A DNA stretch of 64,000 bases from Fictibacillus sp. FJAT-27399. Lineage in GTDB: Bacteria; Bacillota; Bacilli; Bacillales; Fictibacillaceae. Shown here one piece after another: positions 39,561 to 46,503 of this stretch. The DNA is taken from NCBI RefSeq assembly GCF_001510655.1, contig NZ_LMVC01000002.1, positions 159,310-223,309 of the forward strand. The letters run 5' to 3'. The position numbers were made by a program, and so were the translations under genes. Each line of letters starts with the position of its first letter. The first letter of the stretch is position 1. Below the pieces are notes generated by a model, which worked only from the letters and a program-made list of their open reading frames with translations, did not search any database and had not been told where the DNA came from.

Positions 39561-39824
39561 GCAGCAATACAGATTCAAGAAGCAAAGTCTCAAATTGATG
39601 CAGGTGAAATACGACCATTAGTGAACGTGGGCAGCAAAGTTGTTGAAGAATATAAGGACATACCTTTGGCTAAGGACAAATGGTCAGATGTTTCTTTCGA
39701 TGTTTATACCGGCCTGATTGCACTGAAGGATTTACCTGAAGATGTTCTTACTATTCTACACGATGCCTTCAAAAAAACCATGGAAGAAGTCCAGCTTGTG
39801 AATGAATGTCATCATGATTTTTGA
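39561..39824 (+). pseudogene. 3' fragment of a TctC-like (Bug family) solute-binding protein gene
   Basis: An open stretch of 87 codons without a start site reads QIDAGEIRPLVNVGSKVVEE..., then DVSFDVYTGLIALKDLPEDV and LHDAFKKTMEE. This resembles the C-terminal third of tripartite tricarboxylate transporter receptors (TctC), including the G(L/I)xAPKDLPE-type signature. The frame ends by running 13 bp into the opposite-strand opuCD end, so the true C-terminus was cut off at that joint. TctA/TctB are absent. Confidence 0.6.
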
Positions 39825-40474
39825 AGATTTTTCCCTTTTACGGGTGAAAGTGTCCGTTCCATCCAGCCCATTAGAATGTCTGCTAATATGGCCATCAAAG
39901 CTGTTGGAATAGCACCTGCTAAAATAATGGCTGTTCCGTTTGTGGCATTTGTTCCCCTTACGATAATATCACCTAATCCGCCGGCACCGATAAATGTACC
40001 AATGGTAGCTATTCCGATCGCGATAACGAGCGCTGTCCGAAGTCCGGCCATTATTACAGAAACTGCAAGTGGGAGCTCAACCATTCGCAAGATCTGCACT
40101 TTCGTCATGCCCATTGCTCTTCCAGATTCCAGTAAAGCTTTGTCCACACTGCAAATTCCGGTATACGTATTTTTAATGATAGGAAGCAGTGAATAGAGAA
40201 AAAGAGCCATAACGACCGTATTCGTTCCTAACCCCATAACCAGCATGAGCACAGAAAGCATAGCTAATGCCGGAATGGTTTGAATGATATTTGTCAGTGA
40301 GATCACCCATTGGCTTAATTTGGCATAACGGGCAATCAAGATGCCTAATGGAATCGCAATAATTGCCGCAAATAATACCCCATATGCCGACATTAGAAAA
40401 TGGCGGTAGAATTCGGTCCACACGTAGTCAAAGTTTTGGTTATAATACAGCCACAAATCTTTTATTGTTCCCAT
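39812..40474 (-). CDS. opuCD: OpuC-type ABC transporter permease (OpuCD/OpuBD-like)
   Basis: A 220-residue permease with five to six membrane segments and the EAA loop (LESGRAMGMTKVQILRMVELPLAVSVIMAG). It is one of two permeases of a glycine betaine/carnitine/choline importer. GGAGG precedes the ATG. Last gene of the minus-strand opuC-like operon; its 3' end abuts a truncated tctC relic. It shares operon and island with carnitine-degrading enzymes, so carnitine is the likely main substrate. Confidence 0.9.
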   Translation of the reverse strand: MGTIKDLWLYYNQNFDYVWTEFYRHFLMSAYGVLFAAIIAIPLGILIARYAKLSQWVISLTNIIQTIPALAMLSVLMLVMGLGTNTVVMALFLYSLLPIIKNTYTGICSVDKALLESGRAMGMTKVQILRMVELPLAVSVIMAGLRTALVIAIGIATIGTFIGAGGLGDIIVRGTNATNGTAIILAGAIPTALMAILADILMGWMERTLSPVKGKNLQKS

Positions 40475-40497
40475 CCTGCCAACACCTCCTTATCTTG

Positions 40498-41412
40498 TTA
40501 CTCAAAGTAGTGATGCTCTTGTAAAAATTCTTTCGCGACCGTAGCCGGCTCTTTCATTTTTCCATCACCTTCATAATTAAGCTCCTGCATTTTTTCAGTG
40601 TCAATCTTTCCTTGAAGTTTTTGTAAAATCTTTTTGATTTCTGGATGTTTTTGCAACACTTCATTCCGAGCAACCGGGGAAGCATCATACGGTGGGAAAA
40701 ATTTCTTATCGTCCTTCAGCACTTTGAGGTTATAAGATTTCAAACGTCCATCCGTTGTATAGGCTAGAACAACATCCATCTTTCCGTTAGCTGCAGCTTT
40801 ATAAACTAAACCTATTTGCATTGGAAACGTTTTTCCAAACTCCATATCATACGTATGGACAAATCCCTCGTAGCCGTCACCCTTCCTCTTTAACCAGGCA
40901 TTATCTACTCCTAGCCGTAAATCCGGAGCGATCTTTTTTAAATCAGAGACCGTCTTCAGGTTTTCCTTATCTGCTAAATCCTTCCTCACTGTAAAAGCAT
41001 AGGAATTTGCAAATCCATAGGAATCGAACCACGTTTGATGGTAGCGTTTTGAGAATTCCTTTTGAACGATCGATAATGCCTGTTTCGGATCCTTCACCGG
41101 CTCCATTCCCAGGGCCCCGACAAGGTCTGTCCCTGTGTATCGCGTCGCTGTAATGTCTACATCGCCATTCATCATCGCTTTATGCTGAACGATGGAGGAG
41201 CCGAGGTTATTGGCCATTTCTACTTTTAGATTCGTATCGTGTTCGATCATTTGACGGATTATATTCCCCATGATTTGGGATTCTGTAGTATTGAGCGTAC
41301 CAATTACAATCGTATGATCAGAGGTCTTGCTCAAACCCGGCAAAGAACACCCGCTCATTACCAATACGAACAAAAGCATCATTGCAATGATCCCTTTTTG
41401 TTTTATTTTCAT
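40498..41412 (-). CDS. opuCC: OpuC-type substrate-binding lipoprotein
   Basis: A 304-residue lipoprotein with lipobox VMSGC (Cys22) and a periplasmic-binding fold of the ProX/OpuCC group: [69 protein letters not shown]. The Tyr/Thr-containing [12 protein letters not shown] motif belongs to the quaternary-amine pocket. It should bind carnitine, choline or glycine betaine. It lies between the two permease genes, as in B. subtilis opuC. Confidence 0.93.
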
Positions 41413-41429
41413 TTTCTGGTGTCCCCCTT

Positions 41430-45022: not shown

Positions 45023-45023
45023 C

Positions 45024-45983
45024 GTGCAGTCATTAGTGAAAAACGTCACTGTTGTAGGGACTGGTGTTATTGGCAACGGTTGGATCAGCCGGTTTTTAGC
45101 TAATGGATACCATGTTACAGCGACTGATCCAGCACCAGGCGCTGAAGAAAAAATGAGACAAGCGGTAAAATCGGCATGGAATTCCTTGGAAAAACAAGGG
45201 CTGGCAGCTGGAGCGGCACCTGACCGCCTTCATTTCGAACCAAATCTTGAAAGGGCAGTTAGTAACGCGGATCTTATTCAAGAGAACGCACCCGAACGTG
45301 AAGAATTAAAACGCTCCCTATTAAAAACGATATCCCATGCGGCTAAACCAAATGCCATCATCGCATCGAGTACTTCCGGTTATATGCCCAGTATCCTTCA
45401 AAAGGATTGCCTTCATCCAGAAAGAGTCATTGTCGCTCATCCCTTTAATCCCGTGTATCTCATGCCGCTCGTAGAATTAGTCGGTGGACAACAAACGAGT
45501 TCAGAGGTTATGGTTCGGGCACAGTCCTTTTACCATTCAGTACGGATGAAGGCACTGATCGTGTCCCGTGAAATCGATGGTCACATTGCCGACCGTTTAA
45601 TGGAAGCCATTTGGCGTGAAGCTCTCCATCTTGTTAATGATGGAGTGGCTACGACAGAGGAAGTGGATGCGGCCATAGTCTATGGGCCTGGCTTGCGGTG
45701 GGCTTTAATGGGTCCGTTTCTCACTCTTCATATGGCAGGGGGAAAACAAGGAATGAGACATATGCTTGAGCAGTTTGGCCCTGCGTTAAAACTTCCATGG
45801 ACACATCTTGTTGCACCCGAATTAACGGAAGAACTTGCTCAGCGAGTCATTGAGGGTTGTGAAAAACAAACGGATGGGATGGACATGAGCATTCTCGAAA
45901 AACGCCGTGATGACTTTCTAATTGAATTAACAGATCTGCTCGAAAAATATTGGCCCTCTGCTAATCTGAACGGAAAACTGTAA
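45024..45983 (+). CDS. L-carnitine dehydrogenase (3-hydroxyacyl-CoA dehydrogenase fold)
   Basis: A 319-residue NAD-dependent dehydrogenase. The nucleotide loop is VVGTGVIGNGW (residues 10-20). ENAPEREELKRSLL, SSTSGYMPS, VAHPFNPVYLMPLVELVGG and the C-domain YGPGLRWALMGPFLTLHMAGG are typical of L-carnitine dehydrogenases rather than of FadB-type enzymes. It oxidises L-carnitine to 3-dehydrocarnitine. GTG start, one base after the previous stop, with GGAAGGTGGA before it. Confidence 0.92.
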   Translation: MQSLVKNVTVVGTGVIGNGWISRFLANGYHVTATDPAPGAEEKMRQAVKSAWNSLEKQGLAAGAAPDRLHFEPNLERAVSNADLIQENAPEREELKRSLLKTISHAAKPNAIIASSTSGYMPSILQKDCLHPERVIVAHPFNPVYLMPLVELVGGQQTSSEVMVRAQSFYHSVRMKALIVSREIDGHIADRLMEAIWREALHLVNDGVATTEEVDAAIVYGPGLRWALMGPFLTLHMAGGKQGMRHMLEQFGPALKLPWTHLVAPELTEELAQRVIEGCEKQTDGMDMSILEKRRDDFLIELTDLLEKYWPSANLNGKL

Positions 45984-46011
45984 GTAGGTCTTATATGAAG
46001 GAGACTCTATT

Positions 46012-46503
46012 ATGGATAACATCAATAAACCGCTTTTAAAGGAAAAGGTACAAAAAGAGTGGGTTGACTACAATGCCCATATGAATGATGCGGCCTATGC
46101 TCTTGTATTCAGCAGAGCCGTGGACCGATTAATGGAAGACATAGGGTTAAATGAAACCTTCAGGGAGCATGAGAAGTACTCCATCTATACGCTTGAAACC
46201 CATCTCTGCTATTTAGCTGAAGTGCGTGAGAGAGAGCAGATTGATGTGTTTGTACAGTGGTTGGATTATGATTCAAAACGTCTCCATGTTTTTTTTGAGA
46301 TGAAGGATCAAAAAGGAAAGCGGCTGGCCACCAGTGAACAAATGCTGATGGGAATGAACATGGAAAGTAGGCGACCCGCTCCTTTTCCTTTGCCGATTAA
46401 AGCTCAAATCCAAAAAATTGCCAATGAATGCCAGACCATTAAACCTCAAGAGGCAGGTCGAAGAATAGCGATCAAAAGGGGAAATGGGATCGGGAATGGT
46501 TAA
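46012..46503 (+). CDS. Hotdog-fold thioesterase, probable betainyl-CoA thioesterase
   Basis: A 163-residue 4-hydroxybenzoyl-CoA-thioesterase-like protein. The catalytic Asp is in WVDYNAHMNDAAY. Thioesterases of this kind are fused or adjacent to carnitine dehydrogenase in other bacteria and release glycine betaine from betainyl-CoA. It ends the carnitine set: dehydrogenase, cleavage enzyme, thioesterase. AAGGAGA precedes the ATG. The last 20 residues are Arg/Gly-rich and may be altered by the nearby element end. Confidence 0.85.
   Translation: MDNINKPLLKEKVQKEWVDYNAHMNDAAYALVFSRAVDRLMEDIGLNETFREHEKYSIYTLETHLCYLAEVREREQIDVFVQWLDYDSKRLHVFFEMKDQKGKRLATSEQMLMGMNMESRRPAPFPLPIKAQIQKIANECQTIKPQEAGRRIAIKRGNGIGNG

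Follow-up and report, generated by a model that had tools for sequence, protein, structure and literature searches.

A candidate carnitine-salvage module with an OpuC-type transporter and a GbsR-type regulator, inserted at the 3' end of sufB in Fictibacillus sp. FJAT-27399

Carnitine is a solute that Bacillus subtilis takes up whole, and to our knowledge no carnitine-cleaving enzymes adjoin B. subtilis opuC. In Pseudomonas aeruginosa, the caiX-cdhCAB-hocS operon converts carnitine to glycine betaine, deletion of cdhCA abolished the conversion, and the operon was assigned by its authors to both nutrition and osmoprotection (PMC5806209). In Staphylococcus xylosus, import by OpuC and conversion to glycine betaine by L-carnitine dehydrogenase (LCDH) under salt were proposed in 2016 (PMC4742526, PMC5620643), and a salted meat model gave increases of 24.8-, 6.1- and 4.3-fold for opuCABCD and of 22.8-, 5.0- and 3.3-fold for lcdH (table in PMC4742526). 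The present analysis concerned a window of 64,000 nucleotides from Fictibacillus sp. FJAT-27399 (NZ_LMVC01000002.1, positions 159,310 to 223,309; within contig C6 of a 4.5-Mb genome, G000), in which an OpuC-type transporter, a GbsR-type regulator, a BKACE enzyme, an LCDH and a hotdog thioesterase were encoded by eight genes at 39812-46503. These genes are likely to form a horizontally acquired carnitine-salvage module that would convert L-carnitine to glycine betaine, kept as an osmoprotectant, with a small yield of fuel.

The order BKACE-LCDH-thioesterase was the same as in the P. aeruginosa operon, and the product would again be glycine betaine (PMC5806209). Pseudomonas differed in having CaiX with CbcWV, an AraC-family regulator, the acylcarnitine hydrolase HocS and catabolism of glycine betaine (PMC5806209), whereas the present module had OpuC, a GbsR-type regulator, no linked hydrolase and no degradation family found. 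The original prediction had contrasted the regulator with a LysR type in Pseudomonas, which was mistaken, as CdhR is an AraC-family, GATase-1-type regulator (PMC5806209). As in the lcdH-opuCABCD locus of S. xylosus (L185), LCDH, BKACE and thioesterase adjoined opuCABCD; S. xylosus differed in its TetR regulator, in a TetR-BKACE-LCDH-thioesterase-OpuCABCD arrangement read in one direction, and in an LCDH from another clade. The divergence of OpuC from a GbsR-family gene was as in opuC/OpcR and gbsAB/GbsR of B. subtilis (PMC7396694, PMC6207618). A Sinorhizobium meliloti protein, SM2011_c01638, has both LCDH and thioesterase activities (PMC12482172), which were divided here between two proteins. 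The carnitine region of Arctic SAR11 likewise combined carnitine dehydrogenase with BKACE, and its cluster was found in half of the genomes and gave trees at odds with those of core genes, in other hosts and beside other neighbouring genes (PMC12421898). The osmoprotective use of carnitine raised in the original prediction had thus been proposed before for S. xylosus (PMC4742526) and stated for P. aeruginosa (PMC5806209). A GbsR-OpuC-BKACE-LCDH-thioesterase cluster was not described among the literature matches listed, a coverage with most subscription journals outside it. The chemistry is known; the combination of OpuC, GbsR control, no recognised glycine betaine breakdown and mobility at sufB is new.

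The eight genes filled 39812-46503 with all frames open over the full domain length, at the coordinates first predicted, and all eight proteins exceeded the curated Pfam cut-offs (bits below are for the best family of each protein). The arms stood back to back around one control region (~43252-43507, about 256 bases between the divergent starts), an arrangement that also agreed with the prediction. The left arm (- strand) held an opuCD-type permease (39812-40474; BPD_transp_1, 90.8 bits), an opuCC-type substrate-binding lipoprotein (40498-41412; OpuAC, 216.1 bits), an opuCB-type permease (41430-42086; BPD_transp_1, 85.5 bits) and an opuCA-type ATPase with tandem CBS domains (42097 to ~43251; ABC_tran 138.5 bits, CBS 67.8 bits in two stretches). 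The right arm (+ strand) held the GbsR-type regulator of the MarR superfamily (43508-44071; MarR_2, 31.8 bits), the BKACE (44129-45022; PF05853), the cdhA/lcdH-type LCDH with a GTG start (45024-45983; 3HCDH_N, 151.4 bits) and the cdhB-type thioesterase, a predicted betainyl-CoA (coenzyme A, CoA) hydrolase (46012-46503; 4HBT_2, 113.5 bits). Cytobacillus and Peribacillus were the named near relatives by gene content.

The three enzyme genes were kept together throughout the relatives. Besides the locus of the window, 58 positive loci were known and 57 were fetched (G387 was left out); in all 57, BKACE, LCDH and thioesterase followed one another in that order on the same strand, no more than 81 bases apart, two of the BKACEs (L107, L114) being hidden behind longer frames in the overlap-filtered frame list. 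The grouping is therefore not a product of chance. Among 80 named loci, BKACE was near LCDH in 77, including 22 of 22 in Pseudomonas, and two of the three exceptions (L180, L189) were near the end of a contig; the Pseudomonas loci examined kept the order of the published caiX-cdhCAB-hocS operon. Orthologues of the LCDH (E ≤ 1e-75) were present in 54 of 397 genomes sampled from the order, its own included, and in 25 of 135 genera; within the family they were present in 7 of 34 genomes, again its own included (E ≤ 1.6e-128), all other matches being weaker than 1e-36.

The BKACE matched PF05853 with 326.6 bits against a gathering score of 24.8, was the sole match to that family in the genome, and had the His pair and the RxGxEDN motif of the BKACE active site. 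Residues H47, H49, R242, E246 and D247 aligned with 2y7d and were invariant in alignments of 14 and of 6 module-type BKACEs; from the Kce structure, they are presumably metal ligands or catalytic residues. The protein was 57-70% identical to five LCDH-linked BKACEs (Pseudomonas, Halomonas, Staphylococcus and one Bacillales genome), with 57-58% to two Pseudomonas proteins in the cdhC position and 59% to the S. xylosus BKACE. It was not a Kce equivalog of lysine fermentation (NF052387; 260.8 bits, well under the cut-off of 382). The best NCBIfam match of the LCDH was L-carnitine dehydrogenase (NF005471; 411.6 bits, cut-off 414), and 117 of 343 columns, including GTGVIG, were invariant among 14 orthologues. 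The gene context in 57 of 57 loci speaks for orthology, and the protein is a probable L-carnitine dehydrogenase. The 4HBT_2 domain of the thioesterase directly followed LCDH, in agreement with a cdhB-type enzyme of predicted activity; W17, D19, N21, H23 and D26 were invariant among six sequences. The thioesterase matched residues 347-494, the C-terminal part, of the 495-residue carnitine 3-dehydrogenase model PRK07531 (116.7 bits, cut-off 592), a length that fits SM2011_c01638, which we take to be an LCDH/thioesterase fusion. With the order matching cdhC-cdhA-cdhB of Pseudomonas and the three genes together in all 57 loci, the three-step chemistry is very likely.

The transporter comprised a four-gene OpuC set with a CBS-domain ATPase and an OpuCC-type binding protein. 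OpuCA scored 553.8 bits against TIGR01186 (cut-off 326.6), and its start is probably the TTG at 43245 or 43251, preceded by GGAGGT. OpuCD shared 80-82% identity with its counterparts in five module relatives (L061, L101, L102, L139, L140). The closest solved relative of OpuCC was the glycine betaine/carnitine/choline-binding protein 3ppn (E 1.6e-132), followed by OpuBC/OpuCC entries, and its Tyr92, Tyr132, Tyr218, Tyr242 and Thr95 aligned with 3ppn. At the position of Thr95, the OpuBC-like chains shown had Asp in two (3r6u, 5nxy) and Thr in one (6eyg). This position presumably separates broad-specificity from choline-only binding proteins. OpuC-type systems usually import other betaines too. 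Import of carnitine by OpuC, as originally predicted, was supported by the homology of the transporter genes, as was the route from L-carnitine through 3-dehydrocarnitine and betainyl-CoA to glycine betaine.

From these homologies and from the gene context, we infer the substrate, direction, regulation and physiological purpose of the module as follows. OpuCABCD would import L-carnitine, which LCDH would oxidise with nicotinamide adenine dinucleotide (NAD) to 3-dehydrocarnitine; BKACE would convert 3-dehydrocarnitine and acetyl-CoA to acetoacetate and betainyl-CoA, and the thioesterase would split the latter and free glycine betaine, which would be retained as an osmoprotectant. A CoA transferase would activate acetoacetate for conversion to two acetyl-CoA; the balance per carnitine would be one acetyl-CoA and one NADH gained, minus one CoA-ester bond. 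In the BKACE reaction, the acetyl group of acetyl-CoA is joined to C1-C2 of the keto acid in acetoacetate, and C3-C4 end up with the trimethylamine group in betainyl-CoA. Because the keto acid gives only C1-C2 to acetoacetate, the net fuel is two carbons per carnitine, and the harvest of the four-carbon part that had been proposed was not upheld by this chemistry. A candidate for the activation of acetoacetate outside the insertion, the 3-oxoacid CoA-transferase subunits B and A, was encoded at 14087-15478 (- strand; TIGR02428 and TIGR02429 over cut-off), and the genome held three CoA-transferase pairs, this one and two elsewhere.

The absence of a glycine betaine degradation gene, first noted for the module, held for the whole genome within the families searched, which left aside DAO-type oxidases and betaine reductase. 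Ring_hydroxyl_A (PF00848, the family of GbcA), FAO_M (PF16350, the dimethylglycine dehydrogenase type) and MTTB had no match in G000, and FAO_M had none in any of 58 module genomes. A stand-alone BHMT was not found in G000, where S-methyl_trans (PF02574) matched only two adjacent long frames (1165 and 620 residues), read by their lengths as methionine synthase MetH and a YitJ-like fusion. Since no recognised enzyme that starts its breakdown was found in the genome, glycine betaine would stay as an osmoprotectant.

The osmoprotectant (GbsR-like) type of regulator that had been predicted was backed by matches to CudC and MJ223. Its best NCBIfam match was CudC (NF047500; 155.8 bits), of which it was not an equivalog (cut-off 218), and its PDB match was MJ223 (1ku9, E 2.4e-8), the template used for models of GbsR (PMC6207618). 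MarR-type sequence, similarity to MJ223 and CudC, and an osmoprotectant gene context placed it in the GbsR family, for which an aromatic inducer-binding cage was described (PMC6207618). In the available text of that family survey, carnitine appeared only in a transporter name and in a reference title (PMC6207618). The protein is a predicted repressor between the two arms, both of which would be freed when a betaine-like ligand is sensed. Operators of GbsR and OpcR in B. subtilis are A/T-rich, that of GbsR being an inverted repeat (PMC7396694). In the control regions aligned for the window and 12 relatives, a candidate repressor operator half-site, ATTGTACAAAGTTTA, lay at 43395-43409; it was identical in one relative, had one mismatch in three and two to five in eight. 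With arms of 18 pairs, the half-site was part of a palindrome in L080 (18/18), L076 (17/18) and L081 (14/18), and 0, 0 and 1 of 60 shuffles, respectively, were as good. In the window, the left half was degenerate and the best palindrome, located elsewhere, was weak (14/18; 4 of 60 shuffles as good). No clear operator palindrome was found in the window, and in 11 of 14 control regions, the window included, 4 to 60 of 60 shuffles were as good. A promoter scan of 43150-44150 gave 8 promoter-like sites, which were confined to 43290-43402; shuffles gave 3.8 (standard deviation 2.5), and the count is uninformative by itself.

Strong evidence pointed to a horizontal arrival of the module in this strain, by insertion at the sufB 3' end. 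Neither this insertion nor the genome without it, nor the recurrent exchange of transporter and regulator among relatives, had been noted in the original prediction. The module-bearing insertion (38980-46780; 7,801 bp) was flanked by direct repeats of 73-80 bp: the left one (38980-39059) comprised the 3' end of sufB and a terminator-like stem and had 88.75% identity in 80 aligned columns with the right one (46781-46853), which was present as a single copy at the empty site of G023. This genome, labelled 'same species', had a SufB 100% identical to that of the window and no module; its sequence was about 97% identical to that of the window on either side, as far as 39059 and from 46781 onwards, and both matches met in one repeat copy. 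In the congener G025, SufS, SufU and SufB were 94-99% identical to those of the window, while the module proteins were 54-82% identical, hardly nearer than the counterparts in other genera, and the module lay elsewhere in the genome, not at the site of the window. The empty site in G023 and the contrast between module and Suf identities in G025 are what the case for horizontal gain is built on. The repeats at the end of sufB and the empty site in G023 are features of a site-specific genomic island, and prophages beside sufB were described for Staphylococcus aureus (PMC11769447). No integrase was recognised in the insertion, whose frames of at least 90 residues were the eight module genes (scanned) and three overlaps on the opposite strand (unscanned). 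A recombinase was also sought in seven genomes of the genus through the arm-like motif GTGCCRRTTTCGTGCCRA, which matched three times in G000 (two in the window), once in G023 and not at all in the five others; no integrase was identified among them. Plasmids were considered as a source: all 228 plasmid records with an LCDH relative (E ≤ 1e-60) were under 60% identity, so none was a near source.

Both transporter and regulator varied among the relatives (57 loci; neighbours within 7.5 kb). OpuC was present in 15 loci, all with GbsR; an OpuA-type ABC transporter in 15 (12 TetR, 3 GbsR; the OpuAC gene of L092 stood apart); BCCT in 13 (7 TetR, 4 GbsR, 2 neither); and 14 had no linked transporter (13 TetR, 1 GbsR). 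GbsR and TetR never occurred in one locus. The TetR protein that replaced GbsR in 32 of the 57 loci (e.g., L090:10331-10888(+)) is a candidate carnitine regulator; its similarity to BetI was weak (50.1 bits, cut-off 201.3). In the named set, OpuC was beside the enzymes in 10 of 80 loci; GbsR accompanied it in seven, and TetR in the remaining three, which were all from Staphylococcus.

The LCDH tree, made by a quick method with SH-aLRT (Shimodaira-Hasegawa-like approximate likelihood ratio test) support only, tracked this context, with 13 changes of nine labels where shuffling gave 38.8 on average (none of 200 shuffles as low). The starred clade with the LCDH of the window had 14 rows (13 OpuC/GbsR, one BCCT) and spanned families f1, f2, f7, f14, f15 and f38 as well as Cytobacillus, Peribacillus and Oceanobacillus from the named set. 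Seven more OpuC/GbsR rows belonged to another starred clade, of 13 rows, so this label was not confined to one clade (four changes, at least three of them forced). LCDH of S. xylosus and S. caeli (OpuC, TetR) were in a starred clade that was otherwise TetR or unlabelled, except for one BCCT row with no regulator; OpuC was therefore coupled separately in Staphylococcus.

A cluster of CocE/NonD (S15) hydrolases, of which one member was scanned, stood beside 18 of the 57 loci (e.g., L116:2821-4503(-)), and such hydrolases were also present in the named Cytobacillus, Peribacillus and Oceanobacillus carnitine loci. As candidate esterases, they may free carnitine from acylcarnitines, as HocS does. 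As a part of the module of this strain, an S15 hydrolase was rejected, PF08530 being absent from the genome. A search of the literature on acylcarnitine hydrolases gave nothing relevant among the matches listed.

Several observations weighed against salvage with retention of glycine betaine. The LCDH fell 2.4 bits short of the equivalog cut-off of NF005471; the regulator scored well below the CudC cut-off, and its ligand is a predicted one; and the candidate operator in the window was a half-site only. Plain DAO-type oxidases and betaine reductase were outside the degradation search, which routes of other kinds would also escape. The 13 of 57 relatives with TetR and no nearby transporter argued that the enzyme core need not serve osmoprotection in every case. 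PF00848 was present in 5 of 58 module genomes, all five with GbsR-type modules (OpuC/GbsR in G027, G315 and G381; OpuA/GbsR in G303 and G214), so some relatives may not keep glycine betaine. Four of the 11 PF00848 proteins, six of which were in G027, were scanned, and none of the four was a GbcA equivalog: those of G027 and G214 had GbcA as the best family (193.3 and 214.6 bits, cut-off 670), and those of G381 and G315 were nearer benzoate-type enzymes. The GbcA-like Rieske oxygenases of G027 (L219:958-2112(+)) and G214 (L220:964-2124(+)), each behind an apparent aldehyde dehydrogenase gene as judged by eye, possibly act on another betaine.

A mainly catabolic module, using carnitine for carbon and energy and storing or exporting glycine betaine as a by-product, is unlikely, although the same enzymes support growth of P. 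aeruginosa on carnitine (PMC5806209), TetR control with BCCT or no linked transporter was frequent in relatives, and acetoacetate could reach acetyl-CoA through the three CoA-transferase pairs. OpuC and GbsR are families of osmotic stress, the net yield is merely two carbons, and the S. xylosus genes were raised in salted meat (PMC4742526), all of which speak against it; a catabolic and an osmoprotective role are nevertheless compatible. It is improbable that the enzymes act on another quaternary or amino beta-hydroxy acid, with OpuC a mere neighbour for general osmoprotection. The diversity of the BKACE family and the LCDH score just under the NF005471 cut-off would allow it, but the gene order and sequence identity fitted the Pseudomonas carnitine operon and the BKACE was far from a Kce. 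A recent, poorly integrated and non-functional insertion, to which the absence from G023, the TctC-like remnant at 39570-39821 and the half-degenerate operator would be congenial, is likewise improbable, given eight frames open across the full domain length and ribosome-binding-like sequences before opuCA, the regulator and BKACE (three of eight starts inspected).

Carnitine salvage to retained glycine betaine may extend beyond this strain. A wider reading, tentative and about as likely as not, is that GbsR-controlled OpuC with BKACE-LCDH-thioesterase is a mobile osmoprotection cassette, through which Bacillaceae with no recognised glycine betaine breakdown could draw on carnitine as one more precursor of glycine betaine, in addition to uptake and choline oxidation. 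The cassette would be passed from strain to strain through sites like the 3' end of sufB, staphylococci would have reached OpuC coupling independently under TetR, and the CocE/S15 hydrolase would extend 18 of the 57 loci to acylcarnitines, as HocS does in Pseudomonas. If so, many Gram-positive bacteria would obtain glycine betaine from carnitine, beyond its use as food or solute, and this ability would be exchanged as one unit. The module allows a direct test of ligand sensing by the GbsR family in a carnitine pathway, and the CocE/S15 hydrolases are flagged as candidate acylcarnitine esterases.

At L237:3123-8151 (G000 C6:904123-909151), the genome carried a second GbsR-family gene, 41% identical to the module regulator. 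Its neighbours encoded an ectoine hydrolase resembling DoeA (435.7 bits, cut-off 613) and an M20 amidohydrolase that matched DoeB2 less well (329.3 bits, cut-off 550), and GbsR-type control of ectoine breakdown is possible there.

Within the insertion, part of a gene for a TctC-type receptor, with no full frame, remained at 39570-39821 (+ strand; 24.5 bits, cut-off 27), a relic of another transfer. The sufB site carried a second segment (46854-50419), largely common to G023 and with 36.8% G+C against 42.8% for the window, which encoded a glucose/sorbosone-dehydrogenase-like protein and YmaF and ended in a third, shorter repeat copy (50420-50452). The repeat of the sufB 3' end was present at five further sites in the genome (C6:1347968, C1:602789, C1:608143, C6:741194 and C6:744392); the frame lists, few of whose entries were scanned, showed no recognisable recombinase. 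Four of these copies formed two pairs, spanning about 5.3 and 3.2 kb, and the repeat could be the signature of a group of small elements with integration sites at sufB and in other places.

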